Below, piece by piece: positions 7,859 through 33,873 of a DNA stretch of 33,873 nt. Position 1 is the first letter of the stretch. Each line of letters starts with the position of its first letter. Both the position numbers and the translations under genes were made by a program. Origin of the DNA: Bacteroidales bacterium (GTDB lineage: Bacteria; Bacteroidota; Bacteroidia; Bacteroidales; UBA7960); contig SKTQ01000041.1 in NCBI GenBank assembly GCA_007122505.1, positions 1 through 33,873 on the forward strand, in the 5' to 3' direction. The notes below the pieces were generated by a model. That model saw only the letters and a program-made list of their open reading frames with translations. It made no database searches and was not told the DNA's origin.

Positions 7859-8161
7859 TTATACTACTTGCTGTGGTGCTTTTATTTTTATCTTTGTCAA
7901 TATATCTTGCTTGTCTTTTTTCTCTTCTTCAATATCATAATCATCCTGAAGGCCAAGCCAAAACTTTGCAGTAGTTCCAAAATATGACGAAAATCTCAGG
8001 GCTGTATCAGCAGTTATTCTCCTTTTACCTTTAATAATCTGTGAAACACGAGTCTGTGGTATTTCGGTATCCTTTGATAATCTGTACGCAGTTATTGAAA
8101 GAGGACGTAAAAACTCCTCAAGTAAAATCTCTCCGGGATGTATATTTGCTAATCTGTTCAT
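7859..8161 (-). CDS. higA: HigA-family antitoxin (XRE helix-turn-helix)
   Basis: This 100-residue protein starts with the HigA signature (HPGEILLEEFLRPLSITAYRL). A helix-turn-helix follows (IPQTRVSQIIKGKRRITADTALRFSSYF), then the family's FWLGLQDDYDIE segment. It should bind and neutralise the HigB toxin encoded 18 bases upstream and repress the operon. The C-terminal tail is Lys/Ile-rich and ends at about the usual length. Toxin-before-antitoxin order is typical of HigBA. It is transcribed away from the neighbouring RHH/MazF module. Confidence 0.92.
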   Translation of the reverse strand: MNRLANIHPGEILLEEFLRPLSITAYRLSKDTEIPQTRVSQIIKGKRRITADTALRFSSYFGTTAKFWLGLQDDYDIEEEKKDKQDILTKIKIKAPQQVV

Positions 8162-8179
8162 TATTAATCCTCCAATTAT

Positions 8180-8455
8180 TTAATGATAATCTGTTATCTC
8201 AACATCGTGTGCATTATTATCAATCCAACGAAATACAATTCTCCATTGGTCATTGACCCTGATGCTATAAAACTCGGAACCTCTTAATTTCTCAAGCCTG
8301 TTGGATGGTGGAATTTTCAAATCAGTCCAATTTTGAGAATTGTTGATCATCCTTAATTTTCTTCTTCCAATCTGCTGTATCTCAAACGGTATCTTTTTTA
8401 CTCGTTCTCCATTCCAAATTTTCCCGGTATCCCTTGAACCAAATGATACAATCAT
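8180..8455 (-). CDS. higB: HigB-family toxin (RelE/ParE superfamily mRNA interferase)
   Basis: This 91-residue protein matches HigB toxins. It has an N-terminal strand (MIVSFGSRDTGKIW), the KIPFEIQQIGRRKLRMIN helix, LKIPPSNRLEKLRG, and the core strand YSIRVNDQWRIVFRW carrying the conserved Arg residues, with a final HDVEITDYH. HigB enzymes cleave mRNA on the ribosome and stop translation under stress. The length is complete and no disruption is visible, so the toxin is probably active. It is the first gene of the module, with its promoter and a palindrome directly upstream. Confidence 0.93.
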   Translation of the reverse strand: MIVSFGSRDTGKIWNGERVKKIPFEIQQIGRRKLRMINNSQNWTDLKIPPSNRLEKLRGSEFYSIRVNDQWRIVFRWIDNNAHDVEITDYH

Positions 8456-8634: not shown

Positions 8635-8868
8635 ATGAAAACACTCTCTCTTAAGCTAGACGAAGTTGTGTACAAAGAAACCGAGCAGCTTTTAGAAAAA
8701 ATCAAAAAGCCTAGAAATCGTTATATCAACGAGGCTCTTAGCTATTATAATCGTCTTCAGAAAAGAAAACTGATCGCTAACCAATTAGCGGCAGAGTCAA
8801 AAGTTGTGAGTGTGGATTCAATGGCCATTCTCTCTGAATTCGAAAAACTTGAAGGTCATGAAAGCTAA
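8635..8868 (+). CDS. Ribbon-helix-helix antitoxin of a MazF-type module
   Basis: This 77-residue protein begins with a short strand (KTLSLKLDEVVY), followed by two helices (KETEQLLEKIKKPRNRYINEALSYYNRLQKRK), the layout of MetJ/Arc-type DNA-binding antitoxins. The C-terminal part (SVDSMAILSEFEKLEGHES) is acidic and probably wraps the toxin. Its last codons overlap the toxin start by 11 bases, so the two are translationally coupled. It probably dimerises on the palindrome immediately upstream. The antitoxin role is well supported by context; no exact subfamily name is claimed. Confidence 0.85.
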   Translation: MKTLSLKLDEVVYKETEQLLEKIKKPRNRYINEALSYYNRLQKRKLIANQLAAESKVVSVDSMAILSEFEKLEGHES

Positions 8869-9205
8869 GCAGTTTGAAGTTTGGCTGGCAAACCTTGATC
8901 CAAGTTTTGGCACCGAAGCTGGGAAAACAAGGCCGGTTCTGGTTGTACAAACGGATTTATTGAATAAGATTCACCCATCCACCTTAATTTGTCCAATTAC
9001 AACGAATGTTTATCCGGAAAGCCGGATACTGAGGGTCAATATAAAAAAGGGTGTTGCGCATGTAAAAGAAGATTGTGCTATAATGATCGACCAATTGCGG
9101 GCAATTGACAACAAAAGATTATTTAAAAAAATTGGCAAGGTGCCTGGTGGTATATCAGATAAGGTAAAAGAGAACCTGAAGATAATCCTTGAGTTGGATG
9201 AATAA
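8858..9205 (+). CDS. mazF: MazF/PemK-type endoribonuclease toxin
   Basis: The ORF track starts this frame at 8810. The protein-like start is the ATG at 8858 (MKAKQFEVWLANLDP), which overlaps the antitoxin stop by 11 bases and gives 115 residues, the usual MazF length. Family signatures are VWLANLDPSFGTEAGKTRPVLVV (the loop with the catalytic Arg) and the strand LICPITTN with its Thr. MazF enzymes cut single-stranded RNA at short motifs. The frame is intact, so the toxin is probably active. It is the second gene of the module. Confidence 0.93.
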   Translation: MKAKQFEVWLANLDPSFGTEAGKTRPVLVVQTDLLNKIHPSTLICPITTNVYPESRILRVNIKKGVAHVKEDCAIMIDQLRAIDNKRLFKKIGKVPGGISDKVKENLKIILELDE

Positions 9206-9466: not shown

Positions 9467-9542
9467 AATTACCGGCGCGAATCCTCCTATCTCCCATCTC
9501 TCAGTTCTCAGATCCCAGCTCCCAGCTCCCATAATCATCTCT

Positions 9543-9656
9543 CCTTTGCGTTTTTTGCGTAATTTAACCTTTGCGGCCTTTGCGAGGAATAAAGAGCAAC
9601 AGCGGATTGCGGTTGATTTTTTCACCGCAAAGACGCAGAGCACGCAAAGAAAATGT
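9543..9656. repeat. CTTTGCG/CGCAAAG palindromic repeat, copy 1
   Basis: An element of about 114 bases begins cctttgcgttttttgcg and ends cacgcaaagaaaatgt, so its ends are complementary (CTTTGCG with CGCAAAG) and further internal copies of the 7-mer occur in both orientations. Transcribed, it could fold into a long imperfect hairpin. Copy 4 at 24287-24403 is roughly nine-tenths identical, and shorter copies lie at 9701 and 21713. All four have the same orientation in this window. Confidence 0.75.
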
Positions 9657-9695
9657 GCAAATTTATCAATGTATCAATGTGCAAATGTACAAATG
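9657..9695. repeat. Short-period AT-rich array (AATGTGCAA / AATGTATCA type)
   Basis: Degenerate units of 9-12 bases (aatttatcaatgtatcaatgtgcaaatgtacaaatg) directly follow the CTTTGCG element. The same combination occurs at 21803 and 24398. Confidence 0.6.
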
Positions 9696-9700
9696 ACGGT

Positions 9701-9796
9701 CCTTTGCGTTTTTTGCGTAATTTAACCTTTGCGGCCTTTGCGTGGAATAAAATGTTTCACGCAAAGCTCGCAATGAAAGAAAAGCCCGCAAAGCTA
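9701..9796. repeat. CTTTGCG/CGCAAAG palindromic repeat, copy 2 (shorter)
   Basis: The first 45 bases almost repeat copy 1 (cctttgcgttttttgcg onwards). The second half is shortened and diverged, with CGCAAAG-type segments at about 9759 and 9787. It leads into the CTTACT/CTTAAG block. Confidence 0.7.
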
Positions 9797-9808
9797 CTGC
9801 TTACTTAG

Positions 9809-10094
9809 CTACTTCTTACTTCTTACTCTTCTCTTAAGTCCCTTAAGTCCCTTAAGTCTCTTAAGTCTCTAAAGTCTCAGCTCCCAGCTCCCAGCTCCCA
9901 GCTCTCAGCTCCCAGCTCTACCTACTTCTTACTTCTTACTCTTCTCTTAAGTCCCTTAAGTCTCTTAAGTCTCTAAAGTCTCAGCTCCCAGCTCTCAGCT
10001 CTCAGCTCCCAGCTCCCAGCTCCCAGCTCCCAGCTCCCAGCTCCCAGCTTCCAGCTCCCAGCTCCCAGCTCCCAGCTCCCAGCTCCCAGCTCCC
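9809..10094. repeat. Tandem block of CTTACTT, CTTAAGTCCC and AGCTCCC units
   Basis: A unit of about 100 bases occurs twice, beginning at 9809 and 9922 (ctacttcttacttcttact). Each copy contains a run of 10-base CTTAAGTCCC/TCTC units followed by 7-base CAGCTCC units. The last 7-mer run extends from about 9982 to 10094, around 16 units with few changes. The block ends in CATAATCATC, as do the shorter AGCTCCC stretch near 9528 and, in near-identical form, the one near 24728. No gene is present from 9206 to the tRNA. Confidence 0.85.
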
Positions 10095-10187
10095 ATAATC
10101 ATCCCCCTGTGTGTCAAAAAATCCTGTCATGGGCGTTTCATGTTATTTGTTACTATTTTGTTTGTGAAAAATTCATTTTTTAAACAT

Positions 10188-16175: not shown

Positions 16176-19100
16176 ATGAAAGCTATGGGATTGACTCGAT
16201 ATTTTAGGTTGTTGATATCATTTATGATAATCATTGTACTGGCACCCATTGAAAGTTCAGGTCAGTATTTTGGTCGTAACCGGCCAAGTTATCAGCGTTT
16301 TGATTTTCACATGCATCAAACGCCCCACTTTGATATCTACCACTATTTTGAAGATGACTCAGTGGTTACGGCTATTGCCAATACCTACGAGAAATGGTAC
16401 ATCAGGCTCCAGAAGGTTTTCAAAGATACCTTTGAAACGAGGAACCCCATTATTGTATATGCAAATCATCCCGATTTTCAGCAAACCACAGCCATAGGCG
16501 GCATGATTGGTATTGGCACATTGGGTGTTACGGAGGCACTCAGGAACAGGGTTGTTTCTCCAATCCTTGAAACAAATGCCGGTACTGACCACGTTATGGG
16601 TCACGAGCTTGTTCACGTCTTCCAGTTTCGGTCCATGTTTCTCAACGACTCACTCTCCCTGAACTCTTTGCGCAACTTGCCCTTGTGGCTTGTTGAAGGA
16701 ATGGCCGAATACTTTTCCATTGGCAGTGTCGATCCCCATACCGCCATGATCATGAGGGATGCCATCCATCAGGACAAGTTTCCGGATCTCCGTGACATGA
16801 CCCGCAGTTATGAGTATAATCCTTATCGCTTCGGGCATGCCTTTGTGGCGTTTTTTGGACGTACGTGGGGTGACTCCCTGATTGTTCCTTTGTTTTCGGA
16901 AACAGCCAAGTTTGGATATGAACGTGCAATGGAAAGGGTGGTTGGCTTGAGTGCCCGCACCGTGTCAACACTCTGGAAAACTGCCACAGAGAATCATTTT
17001 GCACCATTACTGGAAGATACCACTCGCCATGTGGCTGTTGGTCAGCGAATTCTTTCGAGAGACAATTCGGGAGCCATGAACCTGAGTCCTTCGGTAAGCC
17101 CCGACGGTACTATGGTAGCTTTCTTTTCAGAAAGAGACCTCATTTCCATAGACCTGTTCCTGGCCAATGCTCAAACCGGAGAAATCAAGCGCAAACTAGC
17201 CAGTGCAACCCGCTCCGGTGATATCGACGGCTACAACTTTTTTGAATCCATGGGAACCTGGTCGCCCGATGGCAGCAAGTTTATCCATGTTGCAGTTAAA
17301 CGGGGACGCAACTACCTAATAAAGGTAGATGTTAACAGGCCCCGGCGTACCAGGGAGATCCGCGTACCCGGAGTCCCTTCGCTCAATAATCCAAGCTGGT
17401 CTCCTGATGGAAGCTATTTGGTTTTCAACGGCCTGGTGGAAGGCCGTAACAATTTATTTAAGTTTAACCTGGAAACCAGGGAAGTTACCCAACTGACCAA
17501 CGACCGATATTCATATATCCACGCTTCTTTCTCACCGGATGGACGATGGTTGACCTTTGCCACCGACAGGCCCCAGTCAACACAAGCCGAAGATAAGCTA
17601 AACCTGAAGATGAACCTGGCCGTAATGGACCTCTCAGATCCCGACAGGCCCATTACAGTGCTGGATGTCTTCCCCGGAGCTGAAAACATTAACCCCGTCT
17701 TTACTCCCCAACAGGATGCCATTTATTTCTTGTCAAACAGTGACGGATTTCGTAATTTGTTTCTCTATGAAATGGAAACAGGGGATGTTTACCGGCTGAC
17801 TGATCTATATACTGGTATCAGCGGTATTACACATATGACCCCATCCATCAGTGTAGCAAGGGAAACCGGTGAAGTATTATACAGTCATTTTCAGAAAGGG
17901 GGATATTCCGTATACCGTGCACATCCCGATGAGTTTGACAGGGTACAGGTAGACCCTATGCAGCTGGATATGCATGCTGCAACCCTCCCACCCTATGAAC
18001 GCCTTGTGCCGGCCATCGTGGATGCCAGTCTTGCCATAGAGCCTATGGAACCCATCCTTCCCCCGGATGTTTTTGAGGAAAAACCATTTGACGGCCGCTT
18101 TGGACTGACATTTATCGGCAGTTCGGGTGTCGGTGTAGCGACCAACCGTTTTGGTACCGGTATGGCAGGAGGTGTAAGCATGATGTTCAGCGACATTATC
18201 GGAGACAACCAGTTGTTTACCACGCTGGCGGTGAACGGCGAGATATATGATTTTGGTGGAATGGTTGGCTATCTCAATCAGAAGAGCCGTATCAACTGGG
18301 GTGCTTCGGTTTCCCACATTCCCTACACATTTAATACATTGAGATTTATACGGGATACCCTTATGACAGAACAGGGGCCCGTGGGCGTGGATAACCTGCA
18401 GCTGCTGACGCAACGAACGTTTGAAGACCAGCTGGGATTATTTGCCTCTTTCCCCATCAGCACCACCCGCCGTATCGAAGCAGGCGCCAGCGTTGCCTGG
18501 TATTACTTCCGGATTGATGCCATCAACAATTATTATTTTCAGGGCTTCCGTGTTGGTGAAGAAAGGGAGCGCCTTGATGCCCCCGACGGGTTTAACCTTC
18601 AGCGTGTGAACCTTGCATACGTTGGCGATAACTCCTTTTTCGGGATGGCATCTCCCATGGCAGGCTTCCGCTATCGGCTCAGCGGTGAACGGATGTTTGG
18701 AGAAATAAACATGTACAACGTGGTGGCCGATTACCGGCATTATCTCCGCAGACATCCCTTTACTTTTGCCTTCAGGGGTATACACTATGGACGCTATGGC
18801 AAAAATGCCGACAACAGCCTTTTTTATCCGTTGTATCTGGGTTATCCGGGATTTGTCAGGGGGTATGATTATACCACACTCCGCCAGATCGAGAAAACCT
18901 TTGATGATGCATTTACATTTGAACAGCTTCTTGGCAGCAGGGTGATGCTTGGCGGGCTGGAAATTCGTGTGCCATTTACCGGCCCGGAACAACTTGCACT
19001 TATCTCCAGCGGATTCTTCTTTACGGAGCTTGCATGGTTCCTGGACGCGGGGGTAGCGTGGACAGGCGATACACGCATTACGCTTGACCCATCAAAAGGT

Positions 19101-19259
19101 ATGGACCCCGGCCGTCGTTTCCCTGTGTTCAGTACCGGTCCATCTCTTCGTATCAACCTCTTTGGAGCACTCATTCTTGAACCCTACCTGGCATTTCCGT
19201 TCCACACAAGAGGCATCAGAGAAGGCGTGTGGGGGCTGAACTTCTTGCCAGGTTGGTAA
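16176..19259 (+). CDS. Outer-membrane protein: gluzincin-like peptidase - PD40 propeller - beta-barrel
   Basis: This 1027-residue protein has a signal peptide to about residue 29 with Gln following (SSG/QYFG). A peptidase-MA-like domain (about 35-290) has the zinc motif HELVH at 143-147 and the third ligand probably E174 in LPLWLVEGMAEYFS. Five WD40-like/TolB-type repeats follow (SPSVSPDGT, GTWSPDGSK, PSWSPDGSY, ASFSPDGRW, PVFTPQQDA; about 300-560). From about 640 a BamA/surface-antigen-like barrel runs to the C-terminal Trp, the aromatic end typical of barrels inserted by BAM. The barrel should sit in the outer membrane, but the side on which peptidase and propeller lie is unknown. Zinc ligands look intact, so activity is plausible. 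Such proteins are often labelled TolB-like or BamA-like; no transport role is shown. Confidence 0.87.
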   Translation: MKAMGLTRYFRLLISFMIIIVLAPIESSGQYFGRNRPSYQRFDFHMHQTPHFDIYHYFEDDSVVTAIANTYEKWYIRLQKVFKDTFETRNPIIVYANHPDFQQTTAIGGMIGIGTLGVTEALRNRVVSPILETNAGTDHVMGHELVHVFQFRSMFLNDSLSLNSLRNLPLWLVEGMAEYFSIGSVDPHTAMIMRDAIHQDKFPDLRDMTRSYEYNPYRFGHAFVAFFGRTWGDSLIVPLFSETAKFGYERAMERVVGLSARTVSTLWKTATENHFAPLLEDTTRHVAVGQRILSRDNSGAMNLSPSVSPDGTMVAFFSERDLISIDLFLANAQTGEIKRKLASATRSGDIDGYNFFESMGTWSPDGSKFIHVAVKRGRNYLIKVDVNRPRRTREIRVPGVPSLNNPSWSPDGSYLVFNGLVEGRNNLFKFNLETREVTQLTNDRYSYIHASFSPDGRWLTFATDRPQSTQAEDKLNLKMNLAVMDLSDPDRPITVLDVFPGAENINPVFTPQQDAIYFLSNSDGFRNLFLYEMETGDVYRLTDLYTGISGITHMTPSISVARETGEVLYSHFQKGGYSVYRAHPDEFDRVQVDPMQLDMHAATLPPYERLVPAIVDASLAIEPMEPILPPDVFEEKPFDGRFGLTFIGSSGVGVATNRFGTGMAGGVSMMFSDIIGDNQLFTTLAVNGEIYDFGGMVGYLNQKSRINWGASVSHIPYTFNTLRFIRDTLMTEQGPVGVDNLQLLTQRTFEDQLGLFASFPISTTRRIEAGASVAWYYFRIDAINNYYFQGFRVGEERERLDAPDGFNLQRVNLAYVGDNSFFGMASPMAGFRYRLSGERMFGEINMYNVVADYRHYLRRHPFTFAFRGIHYGRYGKNADNSLFYPLYLGYPGFVRGYDYTTLRQIEKTFDDAFTFEQLLGSRVMLGGLEIRVPFTGPEQLALISSGFFFTELAWFLDAGVAWTGDTRITLDPSKGMDPGRRFPVFSTGPSLRINLFGALILEPYLAFPFHTRGIREGVWGLNFLPGW

Positions 19260-19263
19260 AGGT

Positions 19264-19347
19264 AAATGTGTAAATTAGCTGATGTGCAAATGTGCAAATT
19301 AGCTGATGTGCAAATATGTAAATTAGCTGATGTGCAAATGTGCTGAT
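19264..19347. repeat. Tandem 24-base repeat, 3.5 units
   Basis: Three units of 24 bases with one or two changes each (aaatgtgcaaattagctgat plus gtgc), followed by half a unit. The array starts 5 bases after the stop of the barrel protein and ends 13 bases before the four-helix-bundle gene. The units share the AAATGTGCAAAT theme with the arrays near 9657 and, in reverse complement, with 19881-20019. Confidence 0.85.
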
Positions 19348-19360
19348 TTTATGGAGGGGT

Positions 19361-19714
19361 TTATTTGGGGATTCGTTTTTTTGTTGTGGAGATTATTTTT
19401 CCAAGAATCTTTTTAATACCAGCTATTTCACTAAGCAAGCCTCCGGGATTCGGATAGTTCTCAGATGATTCACATAATAACAACCAATATTCGGTTTCTT
19501 CGGCTTCTTTGCCCGCGATTTTTATTTTGTGACAAAAGTCAGCAACGCTCTCAGCGTTTTGTGCTTCACGGATTGATGCACCAACAGATGTTCCTGCTTT
19601 CATTAATTGATTTGCAATGACAAACTTCCTTTGCTGTTCAAGCAATTCACAGTATTTGATTATATTCAAAGCAAAAGAAAAACTTATTTCTAAAACCGCA
19701 TTCTTTTGAGCCAT
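19361..19714 (-). CDS. Four-helix-bundle protein (S23/IVP family)
   Basis: The ATG at 19714 (MAQKNAVLEISFSFALNII) is preferred over the TTG of the track at 19744, because a TATCTTTG promoter box lies 39 bases before the ATG and almost on top of the TTG. The 117-residue product has the family signature: SFSFALNIIKYC, FVIANQLMKAGTSVGASIREA, FCHKIKIAGKEAEETEYWLLL and a final helix. Relatives are encoded in 23S rRNA intervening sequences and beside diversity-generating retroelements (Avd), where they form pentamers that bind nucleic acid. Here it stands outside any rRNA, bracketed by short-period repeats. Family is sure; function unknown. Confidence 0.92.
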   Translation of the reverse strand: MAQKNAVLEISFSFALNIIKYCELLEQQRKFVIANQLMKAGTSVGASIREAQNAESVADFCHKIKIAGKEAEETEYWLLLCESSENYPNPGGLLSEIAGIKKILGKIISTTKKRIPK

Positions 19715-19752
19715 TATTTGATGAATATGAGTGTTGTCATACAAATATTCAT

Positions 19753-19760
19753 CAAAGATA
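19753..19760 (-). promoter_or_regulatory. -7 box of the four-helix-bundle gene
   Basis: TATCTTTG on the minus strand fits TAnnTTTG. The upstream -33 region is only a T-run (TTTTTTT), so it is a weaker promoter. Confidence 0.45.
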
Positions 19761-19880
19761 ATTAAAAAATATTTGATATTAAAAAAACATATTTTTATTG
19801 CAAAAAACTGTTATATTTAAACCACTAACAAACCACCGACTAATTATCATACCCCCTCACTAAACCACCTCTCCATGCGT

Positions 19881-20019
19881 ACATTTACACATTTGCACAT
19901 TGGTAGATTTGCTCATTGATACATTGGTACAATAGCTAATTGGTAAATTTACCCATTGATAGATTGGCACCTTGCACATTTGCAAATTGATACATTGGTA
20001 CGTTTACAAATTTGCACAT
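19881..20019. repeat. Degenerate 9-12-base array (CATTTGCACATT / GATACATTGGTA)
   Basis: About twelve degenerate units (acatttgcacattgg, gatacattggtac, aaatttgcacattt) run up to the stop codon of the SSS transporter at 20020. They are the reverse complement of the AAATGTGCAAAT theme on the other side of the four-helix-bundle gene. The 120 bases between the gene promoter and this array are AT-rich and featureless. Confidence 0.8.
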
Positions 20020-21537
20020 TTACTCATCGGTTTTCACTTCCTCCATCGCCTTGGCCAGCGACGTTTCTTTTGTGTAAAAGCGTCCCCATTTGGTCGACGG
20101 ATCGGGTTTCGTGGCCAGTGAAACGATGATCAGAGCGAGGATGGAAGCGCTGGCTGCGGGCAGGATGATGTATTGCTCGCTTAACAGTTGTGTGCCGTAC
20201 AAGTTTGACATGATGGAGTTGGTAATAGTGATGAAAAGGGTGACGCCCATACCGGTAGCGATTGAAGCCACGCCACCGGATACGGTCACCCGTTTCCACA
20301 GGAATGCCGCCAGAAGGGCAGGAGTAAGGCCTGCCCCAACCATGGTATAAGCGGTTAGTGCCATAGCCAGAATGGTTTCGAACTGCGTGAGGATCAAATA
20401 AGCCAGTAAGCCCAGCAAAACCACCATCACACGCTGAAACACCACGATCATTTTGGGATCTGCAGTTTTATTGATAAACCGTTGGTAAACATCCCTGGTG
20501 AGGTTGGTAGATGGTGTCAGCAGGAAACTGTTGCCTGTCGAGGTGATGATGGCTACAGATGCTGCCAGCAAAAGCAACCCTCCCCATACCGGCAACCCCA
20601 CTTCAGTGCTGTATCGCGCTGTATGCAGGATAATCCTCTCCGCATTTTCTGCAGCCAGGAAAAGTTCAGTTGAGCTTAATCGTTCCATCACATTAAAATG
20701 GCTGAAAGCGAATATTGCCAGTGAAGCCAGGGCTGTTTCCACCACAATGGTTCCTGAAACCCAAAAAACAACGGCTTTTTTTGCTGATTTTTCGTTTCGT
20801 GCAGAAAAGAACTTTTGGTACATATTGGACTCGCCGAGCAGGAGAAAGAAGGTAGGTAAAAATATCCCCATTGCCCAGAAAAAGTTTTTGTCGCCAAAAA
20901 TCTTGAAGTGCGACGGATCCAGTGTTGCTGTGAGGTGTTCGGCGCCACCGATATTGATGAACACGATGGGCGCTGCCACAAGCATTGCCACCGTAATCAC
21001 GGCTCCGTTGATGACGTCCACTGAGACAATTGATAACATCCCCGCAAAGGCGGTGAAGGTAATGATAAATGCCGCGGTTAGCAACACACCCTGCCACTCA
21101 GGAATGCCGGCAACCAGGTCCAGGACAAATCCGCCGGCACGGAACTGATATCCCACGATGGTTGTATAAGCGATCACGATCACGATGGTGCCGAGGATTC
21201 GTGCGTATTTGTTGTATCTCAGCTCCAGAATGTCCGGCACGGTGTATTCAGCGATACGGCGCACACGGGCAGCCAGGAAGAAAACAATGATGATGCCTAT
21301 CCATGCACCTGCTGCCATCCAAAGTTCGGAGAACCCCACTTTTACAGCCAGTCCGGCGCCGGCCAGCAAACTGCCTGACCCCATCCAGGTACAAAGCAGT
21401 GTGCCTACCAGACGGGCGGTTGACACCGAGCGCCCGGCAACCATAAAATCTTCCTGGTTTTTAACCCTGAAACTCTTGTAAATGGAAATGCTCATCAGCA
21501 AAACCAGGTATCCGATAACAACCCACAGGAATATCAT
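20020..21537 (-). CDS. Sodium:solute symporter (SSS family)
   Basis: This 505-residue protein has about thirteen membrane helices. SSS features visible are the N-terminal helix followed by NQEDFMVAGRSVS, WMGSGSLLAGAG in the unwound first core helix, YTVPDILELRYNK, and later the STGNSFLLTPSTNLTRDVY segment, which carries the sodium-site Ser/Thr residues. The protein should import a small solute (amino acid, carboxylate, sugar or vitamin) with sodium through the inner membrane; the substrate cannot be told. The gene stands alone, with a TACCTTTG box 41 bases upstream. Its stop codon directly abuts a repeat array. Confidence 0.92.
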   Translation of the reverse strand: MIFLWVVIGYLVLLMSISIYKSFRVKNQEDFMVAGRSVSTARLVGTLLCTWMGSGSLLAGAGLAVKVGFSELWMAAGAWIGIIIVFFLAARVRRIAEYTVPDILELRYNKYARILGTIVIVIAYTTIVGYQFRAGGFVLDLVAGIPEWQGVLLTAAFIITFTAFAGMLSIVSVDVINGAVITVAMLVAAPIVFINIGGAEHLTATLDPSHFKIFGDKNFFWAMGIFLPTFFLLLGESNMYQKFFSARNEKSAKKAVVFWVSGTIVVETALASLAIFAFSHFNVMERLSSTELFLAAENAERIILHTARYSTEVGLPVWGGLLLLAASVAIITSTGNSFLLTPSTNLTRDVYQRFINKTADPKMIVVFQRVMVVLLGLLAYLILTQFETILAMALTAYTMVGAGLTPALLAAFLWKRVTVSGGVASIATGMGVTLFITITNSIMSNLYGTQLLSEQYIILPAASASILALIIVSLATKPDPSTKWGRFYTKETSLAKAMEEVKTDE

Positions 21538-21712: not shown

Positions 21713-21808
21713 CCTCTTTGCGCTTTGCGTGAATTATTTTGCGGCCTTAGCGAGGAAGAAAAATTCCGCGCAAAGATCGCTGAGATAAAGACACGCAAAG
21801 AAAATGTA
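21713..21808. repeat. CTTTGCG/CGCAAAG palindromic repeat, copy 3 (diverged)
   Basis: It begins cctctttgcgctttgcg and ends cacgcaaagaaaatgt, keeping the complementary ends of copies 1 and 4 with a shortened, diverged middle. It leads directly into the left direct repeat. Confidence 0.7.
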
Positions 21809-21824
21809 CCAATTTATCAATGAT

Positions 21825-22040
21825 AAAATGTATCAATGATTCGATTATCAATGATCAATGAAAAATTTTTGTTATGATTGACTGATCAAGCCCGGCCTAT
21901 AGAGGTGGTGGCAAATCAGTTCCCGTTTTCCTGCCTGCTTCATACTTTTTATCCTGTGCCAACATTTTACTGCATACTGCCTACTGCTTACTAACTACTT
22001 TTTACTTTCACCCCCTCGCCCCTCTCTCTTTCGCCCCCTC
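21825..22040. repeat. Left copy of a 216-base direct repeat
   Basis: It is nearly identical to 24461-24675: by eye four substitutions and one T of length difference. The core includes gttatgattgactgatcaag, a non-repetitive stretch (gcctatagaggtggtggcaa), a CTACTGCTTACTAACTAC run and a pyrimidine-rich tail. It ends 35 bases before the stop codon of the HhH-barrel gene. No gene lies in 21586-22074. Confidence 0.92.
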
Positions 22041-22074
22041 CCTCATTCTCCACCTCACATCGACTTACCTTAAC

Positions 22075-24237: not shown

Positions 24238-24286
24238 GTTTAACACCGCAAATCCTCTCACAGTTGCTGCGAATGCATAATACAGC

Positions 24287-24403
24287 CTTTCTTTGCGCGT
24301 TTTGCGTGATTTAACTTTTGCGGCCTTTGCGAGGAAAAAAGAGCAATAGCGGATTTCGGTTGATTTTTTCACCGCAAAGACGCAGAGCACGCAAAGAAAA
24401 TGT
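24287..24403. repeat. CTTTGCG/CGCAAAG palindromic repeat, copy 4
   Basis: The element is full length and closely matches copy 1 at 9543, including a shared internal stretch gcggttgattttttcaccg or its near variant. The ends are complementary. It is followed by units of aaaatgtaccaatttattaatgtg repeated up to the right direct repeat. Confidence 0.8.
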
Positions 24404-24460
24404 ACCAATTTATTAATGTGAAAATGTACCAATTTATTAATGTGAAAATGTACCAATGTG

Positions 24461-24675
24461 AAAATGTATCAATGATTCGATTATGAATGATCAATGAAAA
24501 ATTTTTGTTATGATTGACTGATCAAGCCCTGCCTATAGAGGTGGTGGCAAATCAGTTCCCGTTTTCCTGCCTGCTGCATACTTTTTATCCTGTGCCAACA
24601 TTTTACTGCATACTGCCTACTGCTTACTAACTACTTTTACTTTCACCCCCTCGCCCCTCTATCTTTCGCCCCCTC
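24461..24675. repeat. Right copy of the 216-base direct repeat
   Basis: This is the counterpart of 21825-22040 in the same orientation, 2.64 kb away. It continues into a pyrimidine-rich tail and a short AGCTCCC/AGTTCCC array (24695-24728) that ends in CATAATCAATC. The left copy lacks that tail. The region 24181-24818 holds no gene. Confidence 0.92.
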
Positions 24676-24818
24676 TCTCCCTCTCTCCTTCGTCCTCCCA
24701 GCTCCCAGTTCCCAGTTCCCAGCTCTCATAATCAATCTCCCTTGTGCGTAAAACTCAAATACCCGGCTAATTTCATGCATACACACATTTTGAAGTGTTA
24801 AAAATGCTGTTTCCACCA

Positions 24819-33722: not shown

Positions 33723-33756
33723 CAATTGAATTTTCAGCATTGTTTCACAACAGTGG

Positions 33757-33873
33757 TGTTGCCTGTTAGGTGAGGCTACTGGATGAACACAGGCTACTGC
33801 CCAAAAATGTCTACAGACGCCAATGGGTAGAACAGGCTTTGTCGGATTAAGGCACTGCTTAAGGTAGCTTCCC
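33757..33873 (+). promoter_or_regulatory. M-box (ykoK) magnesium riboswitch, cut by the window end
   Basis: The sequence carries hallmark M-box segments in order: GTTAGGTGAGGCTACT (33764 on), AGGCTACTGCCCAAAAATGTC, AGACGCCAATGGGT and ACAGGC, then AAGGCACTGCTTAAGG. These match the conserved core known from Firmicutes leaders such as ykoK. M-box RNAs bind several magnesium ions and then stop expression of magnesium transporters (MgtE, MgtA or CorA types). The last helix and the controlled gene lie beyond the right edge. Confidence 0.9.

Follow-up and report, generated by a model that had tools for sequence, protein, structure and literature searches.

Convergent short-period arrays around S23-type four-helix-bundle genes point to a probable family of small mobile elements in bacteria

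Introduction

The window analysed here is a stretch of 33,873 nucleotides from a Bacteroidales bacterium (assembly GCA_007122505.1, contig SKTQ01000041.1), in which a short gene of the S23/IVP four-helix-bundle (4HB) family lies between two arrays of tandem repeats in the gap between two host genes. The locus raises the question of what the gene and the arrays have to do with each other. The 4HB protein is carried by thousands of bacterial genomes with its function unassigned, and we know of no catalytic activity for it. Intervening sequences (IVS) of the 23S rRNA that contain an S23p ORF occur in Leptospira and Coxiella. Heptad arrays have been reported from Beggiatoaceae, Cyanobacteria and Bacteroidetes with no explained cause (PMC4679880). 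The analysis below ties such intergenic arrays, known from several phyla for years, to the 4HB gene, and the reading that fits it best, which is held to be probable, is that the units make up a family of mobile elements, IVS-like in plan, in which each 4HB protein acts on its own arrays.

The gene and its flanking arrays

The window gene (19361..19744, minus strand) is an ORF of 127 aa with a likely ATG start at 19714, giving 117 aa. Its product matches the TIGR02436 profile at 1.7e-22 (79.7 bits, cut-off 24) and the PF05635 profile at 8.5e-19 (68.2 bits, cut-off 33.8; both by hmmscan), and its AlphaFold model consists of four helices with a pLDDT of 92; by profile and by fold the protein is a member of TIGR02436/PF05635. 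The closest PDB structure is 2rld of the S23 family (41% identity, TM 0.79-0.88), followed by 2gsc (XCC0516 of Xanthomonas) and then by Avd (4dwl, 8ub8). PADLOC returned no match to a defence system.

On its 3' side the gene is followed, 13-17 bases beyond the stop codon, by an array of ten octads at 19264..19343 (AAATGTGC AAATTAGC TGATGTGC; TRF 91% matches, score 139), which on the sense strand of the gene reads as the reverse complement, GCACATTT. The first-pass annotation of this DNA had described 24-base repeats beyond the 3' end; the array is indeed there, and the basic period of the window arrays proved to be 8, not 24, the 24-base unit being a higher-order period on top of the octads (TRF). 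On the 5' side, roughly 140-165 bases upstream of the gene, lies a more degenerate array of octads of the same type in the opposite orientation (about 19879..20020; TRF rows 19897-19949 and 19955-20020), which reads AATGTGCAAATTTGTAAACGTACCAATG... on the sense strand and starts at the stop codon of the symporter gene.

That the upstream array is the reverse complement of the downstream one had also been proposed, and alignment of the upstream arm with the reverse complement of the downstream arm bears this out with a score of 37, against a shuffle mean of 19 (0/1000 shuffles equal it) and only 22 for the arms in direct orientation. The further claim that gene and arrays form a unit bounded by inverted repeats holds as well. 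When the element is folded as RNA, the two arms pair around the gene (z = -4.4). The whole putative element (19262..20020, minus strand, about 760 bp) fills the gap between the stop codons of the two host genes that were used in the empty-site comparison below, one for an outer-membrane PD40-type protein (16176..19259, plus strand) and the other for a sodium:solute symporter (SSF; 20020..21537, minus strand), whose orthologs are 90-94% identical in nine congeners.

What the earlier annotation had missed is that all 4HB genes of the window genome (4/4) are bracketed by inverted short-period arrays with four different motifs, namely AGTAAGC, GAGCTGR, GAGTTTA and AATGTGC, the two arms agreeing with each other at each gene although the paralogs differ in motif. 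At one of these loci (L001) the arms include a perfect inverted pair of 34 bases, and the RNA forms a perfect 35-bp stem around the 4HB gene (z = -7.35).

Specificity of the inverted arms

The enrichment of arrays near 4HB genes was predicted by the same annotation and put to a test set beforehand, which it passed, with a frequency in excess of that at shifted positions, at neighbouring genes and at HigB genes. In this test the 250 bases upstream of a gene are compared with the reverse complement of the 250 bases downstream, a score of at least 26 being taken as positive, and the 95th percentile of the score for mismatched arm pairs is 24. Inverted arms were found at 69% of 119 4HB genes (108 loci), compared with 0-5% of pseudo-genes of equal size placed 250 to 4000 bases away and 9-12% of neighbouring genes flanked by intergenic DNA to the left and right. 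RAYT-type Y1_Tnp genes, which served as the positive control because they are known to be bracketed by repeats, were positive in 44% of 27 cases in the wider set below; the Y1_Tnp genes of loci L214-L243, which come from the same order, have palindromic inverted repeats of REP type on both sides, as RAYTs should.

A wider set gave 68% of 137 4HB genes as positive against 0/21 HigB genes, with 60% in its 4HB subset from other phyla, and Gammaproteobacteria had inverted arms at 25/29 4HB loci. In the combined set of 166 loci, drawn from many phyla, the two arms match in inverted orientation at 71%, a value that rises to 88% once a periodic array on either side counts as sufficient; of the approximately 29% of 4HB genes without a convincing inverted match, most have a periodic array on one side. 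Further loci in the survey are from Clostridia, Planctomycetes, Chloroflexi, Acidobacteria, Alphaproteobacteria and candidate phyla, and from plasmids of Nostoc, Trichormus and Riemerella, the cyanobacterial support consisting of plasmid loci. On the plasmid of Nostoc edaphicum (L145) the 4HB gene sits in GGGAGTA arrays between the ribonucleotide reductase genes nrdB and nrdA. On that of Trichormus variabilis (L147) the 3' heptad array (TCTGAAT/TCTGACTCC) extends into the 3' end of the 4HB frame and therefore encodes the last residues of the protein.

Of 93 clear cases, 68 have a best period of 7 or 14 and 15 have one of 8 or 16. With arrays scanned singly, a period of 7 is found in 63% of loci and one of 8 in 14%, periods of 4, 5, 6, 9, 10 and 11 each occur in 2% or less of 4HB loci, and the flanks of Y1_Tnp and HigB genes have no array of period 7 or 8. 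On the sense strand, G outnumbers C in the upstream arm at 85 loci and is the scarcer of the two at 4, with C amounting to 9% of the bases there in the 93 clear cases; the G-rich, C-poor strand thus faces the gene in 85 loci versus 4.

These figures bear directly on the notion that the arrays are mere slippage repeats of AT-rich intergenic DNA in which 4HB genes happen to lie. Some periodic array is present at 25% of the neighbouring genes more than 1 kb away, and this periodicity of the intergenic regions of the same loci would agree with coincidence, although it is attributable to the gene-less arrays that are common in these genomes. Coincidence does not account, however, for left and right arrays that match in inverted and not in direct orientation (in the first 4HB set, 72% versus 17% exceed the 95th percentile for mismatched pairs), for a period that is almost only 7 or 8, for the strand bias of 85 to 4 or for the value of 0% in HigB genes, and it is given next to no credence. 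Chance or AT-rich slippage was rejected on the shifted-position, neighbour-gene and HigB controls.

The arrays lie close to the gene (median distance 38 bases upstream and 19 downstream). Closely related 4HB genes have dN/dS values of mostly 0.04-0.2, and the protein is therefore kept by purifying selection. Arm similarity climbs with protein identity (permutation p <=0.0005, also without the pairs above 60%), with no link below 45% identity. Proximity, selection and the tracking of protein similarity by arm similarity at close range would all suit a model of self-regulation without mobility, in which the arrays are binding sites, as DNA or as an RNA stem, for control by the 4HB protein of its own gene, and in which slippage and conversion lengthen them and make them uniform, with other genes sometimes captured into the network. 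Such a model is less easily squared with a motif that varies among the paralogs of one genome while the arms of each gene agree, and it meets further difficulties in the comparison of related genomes.

Empty sites and gene-less relatives

At the site of the window element, the same two host genes are separated by no more than a short gap in four congeners (G004, G019, G009 and G002). In G014 an octad array lies there without the gene, and in G005 a gene-less inverted pair of AATGTGCY arrays encloses about 200 bases. Three congeners similarly have a gap of 56-82 bases at cysN|cysD, the site of L001, versus about 590 bases in the window genome (G000). The gmk|nadD gap is 34-182 bases long in most congeners and holds octad arrays in G008; it is possibly a recurrent site, with a gene-less octad element in G005 (L281) and a 4HB gene in the same gap of Flavobacterium columnare (PMC5524665). 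In G005 (L323) and G008 (L325) nadD is inverted relative to gmk, and in most other congeners it is in line; the inverted nadD at octad elements hints at inversions through the arrays, and the element, being located at a rearranged gmk/nadD site in congeners, may therefore shape gene order.

The window, G005 and G014 encode 4HB proteins of 56% identity in three different places with the same octad kept, and gene and motif therefore travel together. The octad pattern has 91 matches in G005, 19 in G008, 9 in G006, 6 in G014 and 3 in G000, whereas 16 other congeners lack it; a search with the pattern reversed gave no match. In G006 and G008, whose genomes are 75-86% complete, octad arrays are present with no 4HB gene detected.

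The sole 4HB gene of G005 sits inside AATGTGCY arrays, and at least 12 further gene-less array pairs are found elsewhere in that genome, 12/12 of them convergent. Of these gene-less pairs, 10/12 share with the 4HB element a subterminal segment of 41-48 bp at 84-91% identity, located just inside one array, and their cores (130-300 bp) are often interrelated, with up to 96% identity over 188 bases. To judge from these shared segments, the 4HB element and its gene-less copies in G005, the one genome with satellites of a shared core among the drafts compared, have the relation of a putative autonomous element to non-autonomous ones. Target-site duplications are not evident at the outer junctions of the G005 elements, where the terminal arrays blur the ends.

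Control of its own gene would require neither the empty sites in congeners nor gene-less pairs that have related cores of 130-300 bp in new places, and self-regulation as the whole explanation is considered unlikely. The same genome invites another model, in which an unlinked enzyme moves the array-bounded elements and the 4HB genes are parasites or cargo inside them. Gene-less elements outnumber 4HB elements in G005, the 4HB protein is without a recognised catalytic fold, and some genomes have arrays with no detected 4HB gene, all of which would be expected of a passenger; the counterevidence comes from the distribution of arrays and enzymes among genomes.

Co-occurrence by genome and dependence on other enzymes

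Of 369 gammaproteobacterial genomes, 72 of which have 4HB, 20 carry the heptad array GTGARGN, and 4HB is present in 16/20 of these versus 56/349 of the others (p = 2.6e-9), leaving 4/20 array-positive genomes without a detected 4HB gene; 570/582 GTGARGN matches fall in 4HB-positive genomes. A 372-kb sample of one of these genomes (G442) contains 15 period-7 arrays, and no other period between 5 and 10 is represented more than once. According to partner counts that were read by hand, with the strand of one array reassigned by eye, 9 of these arrays have a partner on the convergent side only, 2 on both sides, 0 on the divergent side only and 4 on none, and the gene-less arrays of G442 are mostly single or loosely paired.

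A link between 4HB and arrays that holds across phyla and at the level of whole genomes is too tight for an occasional passenger, and neither RVT_1 nor Y1_Tnp is required, 9 4HB genomes lacking both; the passenger model is thus also thought improbable. RAYT/HUH dependence was rejected, since Y1_Tnp is absent from several 4HB genomes. Phage carriage was rejected as well, one representative 4HB query having 0 matches among 50,697 phage records.

The first-pass annotation had pointed to diversity-generating retroelements, and retrotransposition, with the 4HB protein acting like Avd and a reverse transcriptase (RT) supplied in trans, has to be weighed. The protein shares the four-helix-bundle fold of Avd, a weak structural match (4dwl, 8ub8) that ranks behind 2rld and 2gsc, and RT is somewhat commoner in 4HB genomes (33/67 versus 8/31 others, p = 0.047), a weak association that is also expected from genome size. 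Unlike Avd, however, the 4HB gene has no adjoining RT, template or variable repeat, and RVT_1 was not detected in 34/67 4HB genomes, including G030, G048, G064, G075 and G082, which are 98-100% complete; there was no RVT_1 match in G000 (86% complete) or in the many-copy genome G005, and so no detected RT in locus or genome of either of them, as a diversity-generating retroelement would have. Dependence on RT was rejected, half of the 67 4HB genomes being without a detected one. A retroelement-type mechanism as a requirement is accordingly not supported, and retrotransposition by RT in trans appears very unlikely. The annotation's central idea, a role of the protein in the spread or upkeep of the arrays, fared better and is in part supported, by the enrichment, by the co-occurrence at the genome level and by the ends that gene-less relatives share.

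Comparison with known systems

The IVS of the Coxiella 23S rRNA is a selfish element of 428 nt with inverted ends and an S23 ORF, in front of which lie tandem heptamers (GACAGAT) whose number differs between strains; it is removed by RNase III, and its S23p is thought to be unexpressed (PMC4990558). Such IVS resemble the 4HB units in the protein family, in the location of the ORF in a loop closed by inverted ends and, in Coxiella, also in the tandem heptamers. In contrast to IVS, which lie in rRNA helices, 4HB units occupy gaps between protein genes, end on both sides in long convergent arrays of 7/8-base units and have relatives that lack the gene. The window element has an S23p ORF closed by stem-forming inverted ends, yet it lies between the SSF and PD40 genes and outside any ribosomal RNA gene, an Rfam search having detected no rRNA in the window, and because of this location it is filed as IVS-like in plan and not as an rRNA IVS. 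The 23S rRNA IVS, in turn, look like a special case of the 4HB-array units, which places them in a wider family; the literature searched did not connect IVS with dispersed heptad arrays.

RAYTs belong to the HUH (Y1) transposases, and REP units are palindromic. The RAYT/REP-REPIN systems share with the 4HB units a protein gene bracketed by inverted short repeats and gene-less repeat pairs dispersed in the genome. The 4HB protein, however, is not an HUH enzyme, and the ends of its units are tandem 7/8-base arrays and not palindromes; the window element contains neither a Y1/HUH transposase gene nor palindromic REP units. By analogy the 4HB unit would work like a RAYT/REPIN pair, but it is none, because protein and repeats differ. 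A likeness to MITEs exists in the short copies without the gene, whose ends are shared with a longer relative that has it, as found for the copies in G005. MITEs differ in that the ends here are variable tandem arrays, with no target-site duplication seen and no transposase known.

The published heptamer arrays are likewise intergenic heptads. In Xanthomonas about 70 convergent pairs of GGGAATC arrays have been described, near a gene on the outer side (PMC4692102), and dispersed arrays are also known from Nostoc (GGGGATT) and Beggiatoaceae (TAACTGA) (PMC4692102, PMC4679880). The pairs of Xanthomonas are convergent like the arms studied here, and the Nostoc plasmid 4HB gene is bracketed by GGGAGTA, whereas the published arrays were described without any associated gene. 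GGGAATC was found in none of the 29 gammaproteobacterial 4HB loci. A term search of PMC4692102 and PMC4679880 gave no mention of 4HB, and no paper linking 4HB proteins to dispersed heptad arrays was found, the Coxiella IVS heptamers apart, in a search with preprints and most subscription papers outside its scope.

Proposed model of spread

In the preferred model of an IVS-like mobile element family, the unit would be a small mobile element in which an S23-type 4HB gene lies between two convergent 7- or 8-base arrays that serve as the element ends. The protein would most likely bind its own array family, either as DNA or as the RNA stem of the two arms, and this binding, exerted in trans as well, would let the element and gene-less copies with the same ends be copied into new intergenic places, a step for which host replication or repair enzymes would be used. 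Pairing of the convergent arms is also expected to enclose the gene in an RNA stem, from which RNase III could excise the insert out of host transcripts outside rRNA, as is known for the 23S rRNA IVS. The array of each gene is at the same time the first concrete binding target on which its protein can be tested.

A wider proposal is plausible, if falling somewhat short of probable: that these units constitute a phylum-spanning class of mobile elements without transposase or RT, in which a non-enzymatic helix-bundle protein spreads 7/8-base arrays by means of host enzymes, the rRNA IVS being its rRNA members and many unexplained heptad arrays its satellites. Movement without a recognisable transposase would, if true, be a new way for small elements to spread, and 4HB-array units, as little-recognised tiny mobile elements, could explain scattered bacterial repeat arrays.

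Other repeats and features of the window

The window also contains arrays without a 4HB gene. Gene-less heptad/nonad arrays of AGTAAGN-, GAGCTGG- and GACTTAAGG-types are located at 9789..10095 (TRF and sequence), and two of these array types are the motif types of the other 4HB arms of the window genome (L001 and L002 compared). A gene-less AATGTACC/AATGTG octad array at 24399..24480 (TRF and sequence) is related to the arms of the window element.

Two composite non-coding repeats are present, one with copies at 9530-9695 and 24276-24442 (86% over 167 bases) and a second with copies at 21803-22050 and 24439-24685 (94% over 248 bases); they carry octad/heptad arrays together with CGCAAAG-type units, without any 4HB gene. 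A HigB-like toxin gene with an HTH antitoxin (7859-8455, minus strand) and a PemK/MazF-like toxin gene (8810-9205, plus strand) are located near the composite repeat region. At the far end, an M-box (magnesium) riboswitch (33755-33873, plus strand; Rfam 100 bits) is interrupted by the end of the window.
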